Assembly: GCF_040529335.1 (NCBI RefSeq)
Contig: NZ_CP159534.1
Coordinates: 6,820,001 to 6,884,000, forward strand
Length of the DNA stretch: 64,000 nucleotides
DNA from: Streptomyces sp. HUAS MG91
GTDB taxonomy: Bacteria > Actinomycetota > Actinomycetes > Streptomycetales > Streptomycetaceae
Reading direction: 5' to 3'
Positions 4,235 through 62,849 of this stretch are shown here, in pieces. Made by a program: the position numbers and the translations under genes. The stretch's first letter is position 1; each line of letters starts with the position of its first letter. The notes under the pieces are model-generated. The model worked only from the letters and a program-made list of their open reading frames with translations. It was not told the origin of the DNA and made no database searches.

Positions 4235-4453
4235 CAGAAATTGGGCGTGACGTATACCCGTCAAGACAGCCTTGGGTGGGGGCAGTTGGCGCCGTGCTGG
4301 GCGCGAGGAGGGGGAGGGGCGGCCGTCGGACGGCGGCCCGCGCGCACGGAGAGGCGTGCGCGCCGGGCGGTCGTCGGTGCGCGGCGGGGGCCGGTGAGGT
4401 CCGGTGGGGTCCGGCAGGTTCTGATCGGGTCTGGCCGGGTCTGGCGGGGGCGT

Positions 4454-57441: not shown

Positions 57442-57473
57442 ATGAGCACAGACCGATGAGCGGAGACCGATGA
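57442..57473 (+). promoter_or_regulatory. Two chained five-codon mini-ORFs before ankyrin gene
   Basis: A 14-bp unit (GATGAGC-A/G-AGACC type) is repeated in tandem so that ATGs occur at 57442, 57456 and 57470 in three frames. The first two open MSTDR and MSGDR; each stop overlaps the next ATG as ATGA. The third ATG begins the ankyrin protein. This could couple its translation through reinitiation. Confidence 0.55.
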
Positions 57474-57886
57474 ACAGCGCCGCCCTGACAGCGGAGCAGA
57501 CGGCACGTGTCGTGGACATCGCCATGGACCTGGCCCGCACGGGGGACACCGACGAGCTCGTCGCGTTCCTGGCGCACGGCCTGCCCGCGGACGTGACGGA
57601 CCCGGCCGGCAACACCCTCGTGATGCTGGCCGCCTACCACGGTCACGCCGGCACGGTACGGGCCCTGCTGGCGCGGGGCGCGGACCCGGACCGGACCAAC
57701 GCGCGCGGCCAGACCCCCCTCTCCGGCGCCCTGTTCAAGGGCGAGGACGAGGTCGTCACCGCCCTCCTGGCCGCGGGCGCGGACCTCGACACGGGCACAC
57801 CGACGGCCCGCGCCGCGGCCGGGCTGTTCGGGAGGACGCTGCCGCCGCGCCCCGGCGGGGAGCGCGGTCCGTCTCAGGCGCGCTGA
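57470..57886 (+). CDS. Ankyrin-repeat protein, catalase partner
   Basis: 138 residues with ankyrin repeats in about 45-115: GNTLVMLAAYHGHAGTVRALLARGADPD and GQTPLSGALFKGEDEVVTALLAAGADLD, each with the TPL..A and GADxx consensus. No signal peptide. Ankyrin proteins next to catalases are known in Pseudomonas (AnkB with KatB), where they support catalase activity; the same pairing here suggests a protective role for KatA. The stop overlaps the convergent SLOG-membrane gene by 13 nt. Confidence 0.85.
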   Translation: MNSAALTAEQTARVVDIAMDLARTGDTDELVAFLAHGLPADVTDPAGNTLVMLAAYHGHAGTVRALLARGADPDRTNARGQTPLSGALFKGEDEVVTALLAAGADLDTGTPTARAAAGLFGRTLPPRPGGERGPSQAR

Positions 57887-58995
57887 CCGTCACCGCTCGG
57901 CGGCCGGGACGCGCCGGGCGCCAGCGGGTCGGGCGGAGGGACGGACGGCGGGCCCGCGGCGCCGGTACGGAGCCGCTCGAAGACCAGGTCGAAGGTGAAG
58001 CCCGCGGTGAATCCGAGCGGAATGGTGAAGAACAGCAGCCGGCGCACGTCCAGATGGTCGAGGAGGGCGGGGACGGTCAGCAGCTGGGAGGCGAAGTAGA
58101 GGAGGACGCAGACCAGCCCCGCGCCCAGCCCCCGCACGGCCGCGCGCCCCCAGCGCACATCGCTCTCGAAGGAGTTGCGCAGGATCGCCCCCGCGGCCGA
58201 GGCCACCAGCGGGGCGCCCACCAGGACCAGCAGATCCCGGGCGCCGGCCTGCTGCGACTGCCGGGCCGTCACCAGGGCCGCCAGGGAGACCAGCATGCAC
58301 ACGGCCGCCACGGTGAGCCCCTCGGCCGACCGCCGGGCCGTCGTGCGCTCGTCCCGCGCGCGCTCCTCCAGGGTGTGCAGCCTGCGTTCGCGCTGTCTGA
58401 GGAGACAGGCGATCAGCCGGGAGGCCGACGCCGAGGACCAGTTGTCGCCCATCAGGCGGATGTCGGAGTCGTCCGCGTCGTTGCGGACCTTGTCGAAGTT
58501 GATCCACACCTGGCCGGCGCCACCGCCGAACGCGGCCACCGTCACCAGCGGCAGACGCTGGGCGAGGGCGATGATCCCGGCCACCCTGGTGGACTGGCCG
58601 CCTCCCATCAGCAGGACGCCGTCACAGCTCAGCAGGGTGTGGTAGAACGCCACCTCCCACTCGCCGCTGCTGTCCCGGAGGATCTCCAGACTGGCGTGGA
58701 TGTCCGGGGCCAGCCCGAAGTCCACGTCGCTGTGGCGCGGCGGGAAGGCCGCCACCCGGCCCTGCTCCGCCTCGGTGCAGGCGTCCGCGTACCCGGCGAC
58801 GACATCGGTCTCGATGTACTCGGAGCTGCTGGAGAAGACGGCCAGATCACAGCTGGCCCGGGCGAGTTCTCTGCCCAGCTGCCGACAGGCCTCGGGGGCG
58901 AGATCGGTCGCCCTGAGGGGGTGGGAGAAGACGCGATCGGGGTCGGTGCTGCCGATGATCGCTATGAGAGGACGCGCGGACCGCTGCGAAGTCAT
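57874..58995 (-). CDS. SLOG-domain protein with four transmembrane helices
   Basis: 373 residues. Residues 1-190 form a Rossmann-like SLOG/LOG domain: PLIAIIGSTDPD, LAVFSSSSEYIETDVVAGY, and the nucleotide-loop motif VLLMGGGQSTRVAGIIAL followed by AFGGGAGQVW. Residues 226-243, 254-272, 286-305 and 318-338 are membrane helices. SLOG domains bind nucleotide-derived ligands; fusion to membrane segments is the pattern of TRPM-like channels and of predicted pore-forming effectors in bacterial conflict systems. Divergent from the TIR-nucleosidase gene, with TAGACT 5 nt before its ATG. I infer a ligand-gated membrane effector. Confidence 0.75.
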   Translation of the reverse strand: MTSQRSARPLIAIIGSTDPDRVFSHPLRATDLAPEACRQLGRELARASCDLAVFSSSSEYIETDVVAGYADACTEAEQGRVAAFPPRHSDVDFGLAPDIHASLEILRDSSGEWEVAFYHTLLSCDGVLLMGGGQSTRVAGIIALAQRLPLVTVAAFGGGAGQVWINFDKVRNDADDSDIRLMGDNWSSASASRLIACLLRQRERRLHTLEERARDERTTARRSAEGLTVAAVCMLVSLAALVTARQSQQAGARDLLVLVGAPLVASAAGAILRNSFESDVRWGRAAVRGLGAGLVCVLLYFASQLLTVPALLDHLDVRRLLFFTIPLGFTAGFTFDLVFERLRTGAAGPPSVPPPDPLAPGASRPPSGDGQRA

Positions 58996-59123
58996 GTACC
59001 AGTCTAGGCAGTTGGCGCTGATGTGTCTCGACTGGTTCAGCGCGGTTTCACCGTATTTTGTGGAGGTCGGCGTGTAGCCCGGGACGTGCGGGGGGATGGG
59101 TGAGCCGACGGTGGGGAGAAGTG
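58996..59123. promoter_or_regulatory. Divergent promoter region of the SLOG/TIR cassette
   Basis: Minus-strand TAGACT (59006-59001) lies 5 nt before the SLOG-membrane ATG, suggesting a near-leaderless transcript. Plus-strand TATTTT (59054-59059) is the only AT-rich -10-like hexamer before the TIR gene, whose ribosome site GGGGAG is at 59113-59118. No clear inverted repeat is seen. Confidence 0.4.
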
Positions 59124-61355
59124 ATGGCAGGAGCCAGCCGGATACCGGCCTATTTCAGCCACAGCTACTGGGCGGAGGACCGGGAGCTGAACGAACACTT
59201 CTGGAACCTCTTCTGGAACGAGGGCTTCACCTTCGCGGTCGACCCGAAGACCAATCCCCTCTCGCTCACCCATCTGGAACTGATGATGGATCAGAGCGCC
59301 TGCTTCGTCGGCGTAGTGACGCATCGTCAGGAAGAGCGTAGATATCGGGCGTCGCCCTTCATGGTGCACGAGCACGACCTCGCACTCCAGGCGAGAAAGC
59401 CCCGGCTCGTGTTCATGGAGACCGGGGTGTCGGCCGGGTTCTTCCCGGTGGCCGACGAGCAGCGCATCGTGTTCAACCGCCGCCAACTCCCCGGCGCGGC
59501 AGCGGTGAAGCCCGCGATCCGACGCCTCGTCAGCCGGAGCGGCCCGGTCGGCGGCGCCGCCAAGGGACTGCTCGGCACGGTCGGGCTGATCCTGCCCGAC
59601 GACCCCGCGTACCGGGCGGCCGAGCCGCTCATCCGGCGGGCCGTCGAGGACGTCGGATACCGCGCCCGCACCATCAGCCTGGAGTTCGAGGACCTCTTCG
59701 AGTTCCTGCTCGCCGTCGACGGATGCGACTTCGTCGTCGTCGACGTCGCCTCCCCGTACGCGGTGCCCTGGGTCTTCCCCGAACTGAGCGGCCGCTTCCG
59801 GCCGACCCTCAAGCTGATCCACGAGCCGCCCGACGGCCGGTACGTGCCGCGGCCGTCGAAACTGGTGAGCGGATCCGCCCTCCGGGCGGCCGAGCCGGCG
59901 GACCGCATCACGGTGCGCTGGAGCGACCCGGAGGAACTCGCCGGCCGGGTCCAGGACCTGGTCGCCCGCTTCTACCAGCCACGGCTGGAGTTCGAGACCC
60001 ACGAGGAGGGAGTCGGATACTTCCGCAGCCTCGGCCGGGCCCAGGGCAGCATTTTCCTCAGCAACGCCCGCGGGGACGACGCGCTGGCCCAGCGCGTCGG
60101 CCGCAGCCTCGAACTGCAGAACCTCTCGTACTTCCACTACCTGCGCCGCAACACCATCGAACTCGGCGCCGACTGGCGCAGCCAGCTGTACGCGAACGTG
60201 GCCGCGTGCCGGATGTTCCTGCCGCTGATCAGCCAGTACTACTGGGAGAGCGAGTACTGCCGGGAGGAGTACGACATCGCCGAACGCCTGCGCGCCGACG
60301 GCCGACTGGTGATCCTGCCGTACTTCCTCGGCCCCGGAGTGGCACGGCAGGTCAGCTTCCAGGGCCGGGCCATCGGCCACCTCTCCCAGGACGAACAGGT
60401 CGCGGTCATCAGCCGTGACGTGGACAACGAGTTCGTCGAGCGCCGCAGGCTGGAGGAGCGCGGCGCCACGGCCGGGGAGGAGCGGGGCGCCGCGGCCGGC
60501 GAGCCCGCCCGGGGCAGCCGGTGCGACATCGCGCTCGTCACGCTCCTGCCCGAGGCCCATGACGCGCTGCGCCGGCATCTGGAGACGTCCGGCGCGCCCG
60601 TCGGGACCACGCTGCACGACACCGGATGCGAGTGGCTGCGCACCACCATCCAGGCCGTGGGCCGCAGCAGCGCCTACGAGGTGGTGGTGGTCCAGCCGAG
60701 CGGCGACCGCGACGGGGTCGGCAGCGCCGTCGCCGCCACGATCGAGGAACACCGCCCCGAGACGGTGGTCTTCCTCGGAGCCGCCTGCGCCGTCGCCCCC
60801 GACCTCGTACCCGGCGACGTCGTGATCTCCAACCGGCTGCACGGCTTCACACGCGACGAACTGGAACAGAGCTGCCTGCCCCGCCCCGACCGCAGCCACC
60901 TGGCCCACGAAGGCGTGGCCGCGCTCGGCGACAGCATGCGCCTCAACTACACCTACTGGACCGAGAAGGTGTACGAGCGACCGCCCGGCGGCCCCCGGAG
61001 CACCGGACCGCGTGTCGTGGTCGGCCCCATCGCCTCGGGGGACGCGCCGGTCGGCGGCAGCGGCGACCCGGCCCTGCGGCCGGTGATCGGCGCCTGGCCC
61101 GGGCTGGCCGCCGTCGAGCTCGGGGGCGCGGACGCTGCGGGAGCCGTCACCCGGATCCGCAGGAGCGGCCGGACGGACGTGTCGTTCTCCGTGGTGTGCG
61201 CCGTGGCCGGCACCGTCACCGACGGCATCTCCGTCAACTCGGCGCGGCCGGAGCACGAGAAGGCCTGGAAACAGTACGCGGCCGACGTGGCCGCCACCCT
61301 GATCCTGGAAGCGATCCGGCTGGCCTGGCCCACCCCGCCCAGGAGAGACGCATGA
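59124..61355 (+). CDS. TIR-Rossmann-TIR-nucleosidase fusion, probable NAD-type signalling enzyme
   Basis: 743 residues. About 1-110: TIR-like (PAYFSHSYWAEDRELNEHFW and SPFMVHEHDLAL, possible catalytic E83). About 148-240: Rossmann-like, TVGLILPDDPAYRAAEPLIR and DGCDFVVVDVASPYAVPWVF. About 308-435: canonical TIR, SIFLSNARGDDALAQRVGRSL to WESEYCREEYDIAERL with catalytic E382. About 466-735: purine nucleoside phosphorylase/MTAN-like, DIALVTLLPEAHDAL, VVFLGAACAVAPDLVPGDVVIS, AAVELGGADAAG, AVAGTVTDGISV. ATG 59124 follows GGGGAG at 5 nt. The RyR gene overlaps its stop. Inference: TIR domains cleave NAD+ and the nucleosidase part makes, edits or senses the product. Confidence 0.8.
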   Translation: MAGASRIPAYFSHSYWAEDRELNEHFWNLFWNEGFTFAVDPKTNPLSLTHLELMMDQSACFVGVVTHRQEERRYRASPFMVHEHDLALQARKPRLVFMETGVSAGFFPVADEQRIVFNRRQLPGAAAVKPAIRRLVSRSGPVGGAAKGLLGTVGLILPDDPAYRAAEPLIRRAVEDVGYRARTISLEFEDLFEFLLAVDGCDFVVVDVASPYAVPWVFPELSGRFRPTLKLIHEPPDGRYVPRPSKLVSGSALRAAEPADRITVRWSDPEELAGRVQDLVARFYQPRLEFETHEEGVGYFRSLGRAQGSIFLSNARGDDALAQRVGRSLELQNLSYFHYLRRNTIELGADWRSQLYANVAACRMFLPLISQYYWESEYCREEYDIAERLRADGRLVILPYFLGPGVARQVSFQGRAIGHLSQDEQVAVISRDVDNEFVERRRLEERGATAGEERGAAAGEPARGSRCDIALVTLLPEAHDALRRHLETSGAPVGTTLHDTGCEWLRTTIQAVGRSSAYEVVVVQPSGDRDGVGSAVAATIEEHRPETVVFLGAACAVAPDLVPGDVVISNRLHGFTRDELEQSCLPRPDRSHLAHEGVAALGDSMRLNYTYWTEKVYERPPGGPRSTGPRVVVGPIASGDAPVGGSGDPALRPVIGAWPGLAAVELGGADAAGAVTRIRRSGRTDVSFSVVCAVAGTVTDGISVNSARPEHEKAWKQYAADVAATLILEAIRLAWPTPPRRDA

Positions 61356-61663
61356 TCCGACGGAACAGGCGACAGCCGTGGACGCCCCCGCCTCCCGGCA
61401 GCGACGTGAAGGTCCCCGACAGCCTCCACGCCCTGATCGAGATCCTCGCCGAGGAGGCCCACGACAACTGGGCCCGGCAACGCCTCTCCGAGGGCTGGCG
61501 GTACGGGCCCCGGCTGAGCCGGCGACGCAGGACGCACCCCCTGCTGATCCCGTACTCCGCGCTCACGCACGAGCAGCAGGAGGCGGACCGGGTGGTCGCC
61601 ATGGGGTCGGTGAAGGTGATCCTCCGCCATGGGTACACGCTTCAGGAGCCCGGCGGCCGGTGA
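61352..61663 (+). CDS. RyR-domain protein
   Basis: 103 residues. After a basic N-terminus (IRRNRRQPWTPPPPG), residues 22-95 match the ryanodine-receptor repeat domain: LAEEAHDNWARQRLSEGWRYGP, then RRTHPLLIPYSALTHEQQEADR and the closing helix VKVILRHGY. Prokaryotic RyR domains occur in nucleotide-signalling conflict loci beside SLOG and TIR proteins and are thought to bind a ligand or partner. ATGA overlap with the TIR gene and a 13-nt gap to the next SLOG gene indicate one operon. Confidence 0.85.
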   Translation: MIRRNRRQPWTPPPPGSDVKVPDSLHALIEILAEEAHDNWARQRLSEGWRYGPRLSRRRRTHPLLIPYSALTHEQQEADRVVAMGSVKVILRHGYTLQEPGGR

Positions 61664-61676
61664 AAAGGGGCGCTAC

Positions 61677-62195
61677 ATGACCACCATCGCGGTGACCGGG
61701 CACATCGACCTGACGGAGAGCACCTCCGCCCTGGTGCGCGACGCCCTGGACGCACTGCTGCGGAGCTATGCCGCCGACGGGGAACTGGTCGGGGTCTCCT
61801 GTCTCGCCAGAGGCGCCGACTCCCTCTTCGCGGAGGCGGTGCTCGCCGTCGGCGGCCGGCTGGCGGTCGTCATCCCTTCCCGCGACTACCGGCGCGCCCG
61901 GGTGCGGCCCGAACACGCTCCGGTGTTCGACCGTCTGGTGAAGGCCGCCCACGACGTCGTCGTCCTGCCGATCGAGACCGCCGGCCGCCAGGCGTACGAG
62001 GCGGCGAACAGTGTCCTGGTGGAGCGTGCCGACCGGCTCGTCGCCGTCTGGGACGGCACTCCGCCCACCGGCCGAGGGGGCGGCACCGCCGACACCGTGC
62101 TGGAGGCCCGGGCGGCGGGCATCCCCGTCGACGTGGTGTGGCCCGACGGATCCGGGCGCACCCGCGATGCCCCGCGACCGGGCCGAGGTCAGTAA
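61677..62195 (+). CDS. SLOG-family protein (DprA/LOG-like)
   Basis: 172 residues of SLOG fold: AVTGHIDLTESTSALVRDAL, VGVSCLARGADSLFAEAVL, LAVVIPSRDYRRARV and the ligand loop LVAVWDGTPPTGRGGGTADTV. It has no membrane segment, so it is the soluble counterpart of the SLOG-membrane protein at the other end of the cassette. ATG 61677 has AAGGGG (61665-61670) 6 nt upstream; a longer start at 61629 lies inside the RyR gene. Predicted to bind or process the cassette's nucleotide signal. Confidence 0.82.
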   Translation: MTTIAVTGHIDLTESTSALVRDALDALLRSYAADGELVGVSCLARGADSLFAEAVLAVGGRLAVVIPSRDYRRARVRPEHAPVFDRLVKAAHDVVVLPIETAGRQAYEAANSVLVERADRLVAVWDGTPPTGRGGGTADTVLEARAAGIPVDVVWPDGSGRTRDAPRPGRGQ

Positions 62196-62648
62196 CGTGG
62201 GCGCGAAGATCCAGCACCCGCTGGTTGGTGTTGAAGGCTCCGAACCCGGCCATGGAACCGCTGTTGTCACTCCCGGAGATCGCGGACCGTCCGCAGACCT
62301 CCTTCCACGTCGGCACCAGACCGTCGATGTTGAACAGATGCACCGCGTTGTTGAGGGCGCCGGCATCGCCGTTGGCCGCCGCCCAGTTGTCGGCACGTAG
62401 TTGTGGAACACACAGCCGACCGTCGGTACCGCGCTGACGATCCTTGTGTTGTCGCAGCGGATCTGGTCGGCGAAGCCGCCGTTCTCCAGGTCGCCGCCCG
62501 CGACGTCCATGAACACGGCGGGAGTCGACTCCACTGTCTGCCCCGGGATCTTCGGGTTGCCCTGGAGTGCGACCGCGACGCCGACCTTCATCACCTGCGG
62601 GTCGCTGGTGTTCGGGCCGGTCAGCGTCGGCCCCCAGGCGTAGGTGGC
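62190..62648 (-). pseudogene. Frameshifted remnant of an exported protein
   Basis: Two adjacent minus-strand frames read as one protein. Upstream part (about 62648-62390): ATYAWGPTLTGPNTSDP, VAVALQGNPKIPGQTVES, NTRIVSAVPTVGCVFHNYVPT. The other frame continues ADNWAAANGDAGALNN, HLFNIDGLVPTWKEVCGRSA, FGAFNTNQRVLDLRA. The join is near 62390. No start or signal peptide remains. Cys-containing style and the N-terminal GPN-type repeats resemble exported streptomycete nuclease-like (NucA/B) proteins, but the family is uncertain. This is all I see in the 654-nt gap besides unassigned sequence at 62650-62849. Confidence 0.6.
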
Positions 62649-62849
62649 GTCCGCGGTCACGCTGTGGTGGTCGTGGGGGTGGTCGACGGGGGCTCCCGTG
62701 CGATCGCCCTGAATCCAAAGGCTTCTGGGGCGACGCCGGATGTGGAGGATCTTCGCGGAGCCCCCACAGTGTGGGGAGAACTGCACAAGTCTGGCGGAGG
62801 ACATACCGCACAGTCATGAGGGATTGTGAGAGATGAGAGGGTGAGACCC

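Follow-up and report, generated by a model that had tools for sequence, protein, structure and literature searches.

The window analysed here is a 64-kb stretch of DNA from Streptomyces sp. HUAS MG91, in which four genes, A, B, C and D, form a 4.3-kb cassette at positions 57874–62195. Gene B (59124–61355, plus strand) opens with an ATG codon and encodes 743 residues, arranged as a TIR-like domain, a Rossmann-like domain, a second TIR domain and a PNP fold. Gene C (61352–61663, plus strand) encodes a 103-residue protein with a RyR domain of the R12 type; it overlaps B exactly at the ATGA of 61352–61355, and a B–C overlap is also present at loci L083 and L081. Gene D (61677–62195, plus strand) starts 13 bases past the stop codon of C and encodes a soluble, SLOG-like protein of 172 residues. 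Gene A (57874–58995, minus strand) is divergent from B, with 128 bp between the two genes (58996–59123), and its 373-residue product carries a SLOG domain at the N-terminus and membrane helices at the C-terminus. A first-pass annotation of this DNA had given the same gene ends and the same ATGA overlap, both of which are exact. The divergent promoters that it placed between A and B were not recovered: the 128-bp gap holds no sigma-70-like site according to a consensus that covers one promoter type only.

Domains were assigned with Pfam and NCBIfam profiles at family cut-offs, and defence profiles were those of PADLOC 2.0.0. Most of the domain set proposed in the first-pass annotation stands. 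The strongest call in the cassette is RyR in C (PF02026, 80.7 bits against a cut-off of 27.4), and B scores over the Pfam cut-off for TIR_2 (residues 310–403, 50.2 bits, cut-off 28) and PNP_UDP_1 (residues 470–646, 35.5 bits, cut-off 25.1); SLOG in A is recovered by an AlphaFold2 model and fold comparison. The weaker part is D as a SLOG protein, which has no Pfam match over cut-off of its own and two relatives with sub-threshold matches to DprA or YspA-SLOG. Within B, on the plus strand, the N-terminal TIR-like domain spans residues 6–140 (59139–59543) and includes Glu83, the Rossmann-like domain residues 150–290 (59571–59993), the second TIR domain residues 305–440 (60036–60443; Glu382 codon 60267–60269) and the MTAN-type PNP domain residues 466–740 (60519–61343). 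The best NCBIfam matches of B, to the TIR-like FxsC_Nterm and to an MTA/SAH nucleosidase model, lie below cut-off, and its VIA-align and Foldseek lists are filled with PNP-domain structures.

Both TIR domains keep their catalytic position. In an alignment of 26 rows, comprising the window protein and 25 of at least 54 relatives (7997 candidates scored), Glu83 of the first and Glu382 of the second are invariant, which extends to the whole alignment the annotation's remark that E382 is intact. The N-terminal domain was not detected by Pfam in the window protein; its assignment as TIR-like is based on predicted topology, the invariant Glu83 and a weak profile match to the second TIR domain (HHalign E 0.005, probability only 7%). 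The Pfam ThsB_TIR model matched one of the 26 rows, at E 0.04, and the short B relative of L083 weakly matches the PADLOC ThsB profile (E 2.9e-4).

The PNP domain of B has an MTAN fold and is catalytically degenerate. Gly667 (61122–61124) stands in place of the second Glu of VEMEG and Gly696 (61209–61211) in place of the catalytic Asp; we take the replaced residues to be the ribose-binding Glu174 and catalytic Asp197 of E. coli MTAN, and an entry titled Asp197Asn is found among MTAN structures. All nine Streptomyces-clade rows have Gly for the catalytic Asp, with Gly (six rows) or Asp (three rows) at the second Glu, and the relative in genome G481 has lost both residues. Sixteen other rows, between P0011 and P0041, keep their PNP motifs intact. 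By the ratio of nonsynonymous to synonymous substitution rates (dN/dS), computed from pairs that all include the window sequence and are thus not independent, the PNP domain is the least constrained folded domain, below the TIR domains in constraint, and the least constrained stretches overall are the linker of B and the tail of A. With the catalytic residues lost, an active nucleosidase is rejected for the window clade. The annotation's proposal that the nucleosidase limits or tailors the signal is not supported, because the domain lacks its catalytic Asp and is under weaker constraint than the TIRs.

The most consistent feature of the cassette across genomes is the pairing of B with a RyR gene. 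Among 392 Streptomyces genomes, five hold a B relative at E 1e-10, four of these being clear and that of G385 weak, and RyR was found in five genomes of the identical sample. A RyR gene lies directly 3′ of B in 4/4 clear B genomes, versus one RyR among the other 388; this last RyR, in G121, belongs to a TrkA_N protein. The association has a hypergeometric probability of 5e-9 without kinship correction. Across ten distinct genomes (G767 and G768 being G011 and G148, with the same places), RyR adjoins the B relative in nine, the exception being G385, whose B relative is just 23% identical. TIR-RyR pairs also occur with neither A nor D nearby, at L081, L083 and L084, and the B relatives of L083 and L084 lack the PNP domain as well; at L090 the contig begins 30 bases ahead of B and the region of A falls outside it. 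Because RyR stays beside B relatives that lack PNP, TIR and RyR make up the conserved core, to which PNP, A and D are optional additions. The annotation's expectation that all four genes are co-conserved thus stands for B and C, which are linked, and partly fails for A and D, which are missing from some homologous loci. An obligate four-gene system is ruled out by TIR-RyR pairs without A or D, by A relatives without RyR and by the restriction of D to close relatives.

A class-wide profile search with the B alignment matched 35 of 394 genomes, mostly through PNP domains of other proteins, and whole-length matches were confined to G000 and G481. Genome G481 belongs to another family of the class, and its TIR-RyR pair has a divergently oriented run of three genes beside it (L081:11964–15432). 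The first of these genes encodes a NUDIX protein of the ADP-ribose-pyrophosphatase family (TIGR00052, 108.9 bits, cut-off 79.55; the next-best model, ADP-ribose diphosphatase, is under its own cut-off), and the second a protein with a hydrophobic N-terminus, presumed to lie in the membrane, and a macro domain (Pfam Macro, 31.5 bits, cut-off 22). The third encodes 605 residues with SIR2-like motifs recognised by eye only, and has no Pfam or NCBIfam match. Run and TIR-RyR pair possibly make up a larger NAD-centred defence locus. Among the genes that stand in G481 where A would be is thus one of a known Thoeris effector type, and by analogy this is the strongest indirect argument for A as the effector.

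The AlphaFold2 model of A (mean predicted local distance difference test score, pLDDT, 87.5) consists of an N-terminal SLOG fold followed by helices at residues 190–243, 252–274, 282–307 and 317–343. The membrane helices, on which hydropathy agrees, lie within residues 222–343 (57967–58332, minus strand), and their predicted number matches the four that the annotation had counted. In fold comparisons of the sensor domain (58429–58974, minus strand), the SLOG domain of BcThsA with 3′cADPR (3′ cyclic ADP-ribose; 7uxs_B) is Foldseek rank 3, and rank 1 is 1rcu, also the best match of the A-family profile. ThsA leads the SLOG matches, and the modelled domain looks like the SLOG of this Thoeris effector, level with other LOG-like folds. 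No Pfam family scores over cut-off for A, STALD (PF18185) included; a survey with the STALD profile matched 0 of 197 genomes and likewise none of the controls, and is hence uninformative on A versus ThsA.

Relatives of A were found in six of 199 Streptomyces genomes, two of which are cassettes, and the family alignment holds 35 of at least 104 relatives (7996 candidates scored) with the window protein and one locus. Outside cassettes, A-family genes have a TIR or SEFIR neighbour at four of five loci. They are divergent from a TIR_2 gene at L110:9521–10777 and L111:6970–8271 and from a SEFIR-NACHT gene at L109:9054–13007, and in G385 (L085) an A relative with 38% identity is in tandem with a TIR_2, TIR-TIR gene (23% identical to B), with no RyR. 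The A relative of L108, beside a TIR-looking gene of 394 residues with no Pfam match, was left outside the four. These differing TIR and SEFIR neighbours at L109–L111 suggest that the A family is a portable membrane effector. The annotation's view of the membrane SLOG protein as an effector gains support from the ThsA-like fold and from G481, and because a membrane-macro gene of the ThsA variant type takes the position of A in that genome, A is likely to be a nucleotide-gated membrane effector, a prediction made by analogy. Separately, P0055 (an A relative, 95% identical) and P0018 (a B relative, 37% identical) each come from a contig of 10,646 bases (18 and 19 member sequences); should the two be a single contig, the partner genes have been exchanged or are diverging at very different rates.

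The RyR domain of C can be compared with RyDEP, the RyR protein gp78 of mycobacteriophage DyoEdafos, which is described as an anti-defence protein that destroys 2′cADPR and 3′cADPR (PMC13232231). Residues H37, W40, H62 and D79 of C align with H75, W78, H100 and D117 of gp78, and this H, W, H, D set is invariant in all 11 aligned bacterial RyR sequences. Two of these have a link to TrkA_N, one coming from a TrkA_N-RyR protein (L092) and the other from a frame next to a TrkA_N gene (L086). Q54 of RyDEP, among the residues mutated in the same study (PMC13232231), is Ser in C, and near a gap five bacterial sequences carry S, S, E, D and S. Since H/W/H/D is kept but Q54 is variable, the residues of C predict nucleotide binding better than catalysis. 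With E values of up to 1 allowed, 275 phage records contain RyR relatives of C; Arthrobacter and Gordonia phages are among the best rows, and two Streptomyces phages match only at E 0.3. Four of eight other actinobacterial RyR loci are TrkA_N-linked by Pfam, and L094, L096, L097 and L100 are without TrkA_N. RyR lies near the C-terminus of a TrkA_N frame at L092:9502–11268, L093:9828–11582 and L095:7984–9819, the last also weakly like a Slo-type RCK protein, and in a separate frame just 3′ of a TrkA_N gene at L086:9908–11836. TrkA_N-RyR proteins are possible candidates for nucleotide-gated ion transporters.

The cassette recurs as a block. Besides the window, four further Streptomyces genomes have the four genes in intact order, with DNA identities to the window cassette of 92.0% (L088), 90.6% (L082), 86.1% (L087) and 84.2% (L089) over 4,248–4,306 alignment columns. 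The alignments are limited almost to the genes themselves, running from 0–73 bases inside the end of A to 10–31 bases short of the end of D, and the window flanks (7.9 kb left, 1.8 kb right) have no match at any of these four loci; among 12 loci compared, the only flank matches are two short ones in L084. L088 and L082 have no flank in common with any other cassette. L087 and L089 have a common D-side flank at 93–96% identity (the A side of L089 extends for only 213 bases), and the five cassettes are therefore counted at four sites. Its recurrence, in a block at several sites, is beyond chance, and from its occurrence at different chromosomal sites we regard the cassette as mobile.

D appears to have a separate history. 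Its family numbers at least 1485 proteins at E 1e-3 (among 2586 candidates); the named relatives among the best 120 of 1485 are all Streptomyces by label, and the alignment comprises 19 of these 120, the window protein and three loci. D sits inside the cassette in five of ten genomes searched, which are only the five close cassettes, and unlinked relatives are present in three of the ten (G766, G301 and, as a second copy, G148). D is a recent recruit to the cassette; as a core part it was ruled out by the size of its family and by these unlinked relatives. The unlinked relative of G301 adjoins a gene for an 8xMP membrane protein. The D-family SLOG-like gene and the same-strand 8xMP gene (PF24838, 140 bits) of L113:5933–7112 are possibly a separate SLOG-membrane pair. 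At the borders of the window cassette, an ankyrin-repeat gene identified by Pfam (57470–57886) follows a catalase-like gene (by eye) on one side, and on the right (62200–62820) minus-strand frames in the gap that separates D from the following plus-strand gene resemble, by eye, gene fragments.

Taken together, we consider it probable, at roughly 60%, that the cassette is a mobile Thoeris-like defence or stress system comprising a TIR protein, a SLOG-membrane effector and a RyR protein that acts as buffer or eraser. Its direct basis is the domains, modelled folds, residues, linkage, occurrence at several sites and selection pattern; the biochemical steps and the biological trigger we infer from the biochemistry of TIR proteins, ThsA and RyDEP. 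In the proposed mechanism, B would sense the trigger, and the degenerate, less constrained PNP domain is the best candidate for the sensor. With Glu83 and Glu382 intact, B would turn NAD+ into an ADP-ribose-type nucleotide by the chemistry of the TIR family. By analogy with ThsA, this nucleotide would bind the SLOG domain of A, which would oligomerise or open and damage the membrane. Co-translated C would bind, and perhaps hydrolyse, this nucleotide too, and would thereby set a threshold or end the signal, as RyDEP biochemistry suggests. D may be an accessory, a SLOG-like sensor or buffer that a single Streptomyces lineage gained recently. The annotation's idea of an ADP-ribose-type signalling cassette is supported by the RyR linkage, the ThsA-like SLOG fold, the RyDEP residues and the NUDIX and macro neighbours of the G481 relative. 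A more specific version is tentative and, on our estimate, rather unlikely: that TIR and RyR are a maker-and-remover pair, with a SLOG-gated membrane effector, in which a ThsA-type sensor is joined to a membrane module, and a dead nucleosidase as infection sensor, and that phages took their RyR from this host off-switch. C would then be a RyDEP-type glycosidase or a high-affinity buffer for a cADPR-type signal, and this version is weakened because Q54 of RyDEP is not conserved.

Several observations weigh against a Thoeris-like system. None of the four cassette proteins has a PADLOC match, and NCBIfam returns sub-cut-off matches only. A has no STALD match, and in the comparison of its sensor domain ThsA SLOG is tied with TM1055 (17.2) and with Moco carrier proteins (16.9 to 16.0). 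The TIR-RyR pairs of L083 and L084 are without A, and G011 has no A relative anywhere in its genome at E 1e-10. Independent events are fewer than genomes, as G301 and G011 share flanking genes and count as one event and L087 and L089 occupy a shared site. No B relative was found in plasmids at E 1e-10, and the A and B profiles found no relatives in viral contigs. The substitution of Q54 speaks against an eraser of the RyDEP kind, as does the report that, of eight phage homologs of RyDEP tested, six were complexed with signals and none cleaved them (PMC13232231).

An alternative is that the TIR protein itself kills by NAD+ depletion, in which case C would be the regulator that belongs to it and A and D would have secondary, accessory roles. 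TIR-RyR without A at L083, L084 and L081, the lack of an A relative in G011 and the B–C overlap in L083 and L081 all fit such a scheme; A nevertheless accompanies B in five of five intact cassettes, G385 pairs A with a TIR-TIR gene even at 38% and 23% identity, and A relatives lie beside other TIR or SEFIR genes at L109–L111, so that we judge it unlikely as a general account. Because G011 lacks an A relative at E 1e-10, the TIR protein may all the same kill directly, or use another effector, in some hosts. A role in non-immune regulation of NAD or ADP-ribose metabolism or of development is less probable still. It accords with the want of a defence-model match for the window proteins and with immediate neighbours that are an ankyrin-repeat gene and, by eye, metabolic-looking genes, and is opposed by the patchy spread (5/392 Streptomyces, one weak), the five cassettes over four sites, the lower constraint on PNP and the RyR relatives in phage records. 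Least probable is that PNP is an active nucleosidase effector, cleaving ATP or a nucleotide, to which the TIR domains signal in cis: the Asp is Gly in 9/9 rows of the window clade and the second Glu is replaced throughout, both are lost in G481, constraint is weaker than on the TIRs, and B relatives at L083 and L084 have no PNP.

With a TIR protein and a RyR domain in one translation unit, the cassette offers the RyR domains of prokaryotes a physiological partner that can be tested. Should C erase or buffer the TIR signal, this would hint at a possible origin of phage anti-Thoeris RyR proteins and at how TIR immunity escapes self-poisoning. If C is instead a receptor, the R12 domain of animal ryanodine receptors would be linked to a bacterial sensor of the ADP-ribose type.

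Burroughs and colleagues reportedly predicted in 2015, in general terms, nucleotide-centric conflict systems that contain SLOG, RyR and TIR domains, and the cassette has in common with them the broad premise that such domains produce and detect nucleotides derived from NAD. A 2025 preprint by Yirmiya on TIR systems may already describe SLOG-membrane effectors. In the TRPM and ryanodine channels such domains are parts of channels, whereas those of the cassette are on separate small bacterial proteins. Our literature search, at the level of listings and abstracts, found no account of a TIR-RyR operon in a host and none with SLOG, RyR, TIR and nucleosidase together; among the papers listed, a TIR domain and a RyR domain were found together only in PMC13232231. 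PMC7159879 discusses NAD-derived messengers made by TIR domains, and also SLATT, for which a role as pore-forming effector is predicted; TIR-SLATT neighbourhoods of phages are described in PMC9503650. C shares the R12-type RyR domain and H/W/H/D with gp78; unlike RyDEP, which is phage-encoded and anti-defence, it is host-encoded within a TIR operon, differs at Q54 and has a predicted function.

The closest known system is Thoeris, composed of the TIR protein ThsB and the SIR2-SLOG protein ThsA. In both, a TIR protein with a catalytic Glu is partnered by a protein with a ThsA-like SLOG fold, but A has membrane helices where ThsA has SIR2, B has two TIR-like domains and a degenerate PNP domain, and the cassette adds RyR and second SLOG-like genes and has no PADLOC match for its proteins. 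Reported ThsA variants are SIR2-SLOG and TM-macro, the latter thought to target the membrane (PMC11204291). A belongs to neither named type, and a membrane-macro gene occurs only beside the G481 relative. With TM-macro Thoeris the cassette has in common a predicted membrane effector whose nucleotide-binding domain lies in the cytosol, and a membrane-macro gene stands beside the TIR-RyR pair of G481, but A uses SLOG rather than macro and has four predicted membrane helices instead of two. By analogy, the cassette would be Thoeris-like in its working, yet without a ThsA-type effector or a PADLOC match, and its SLOG-membrane partner would be a further effector architecture beside the two ThsA variants described in PMC11204291.

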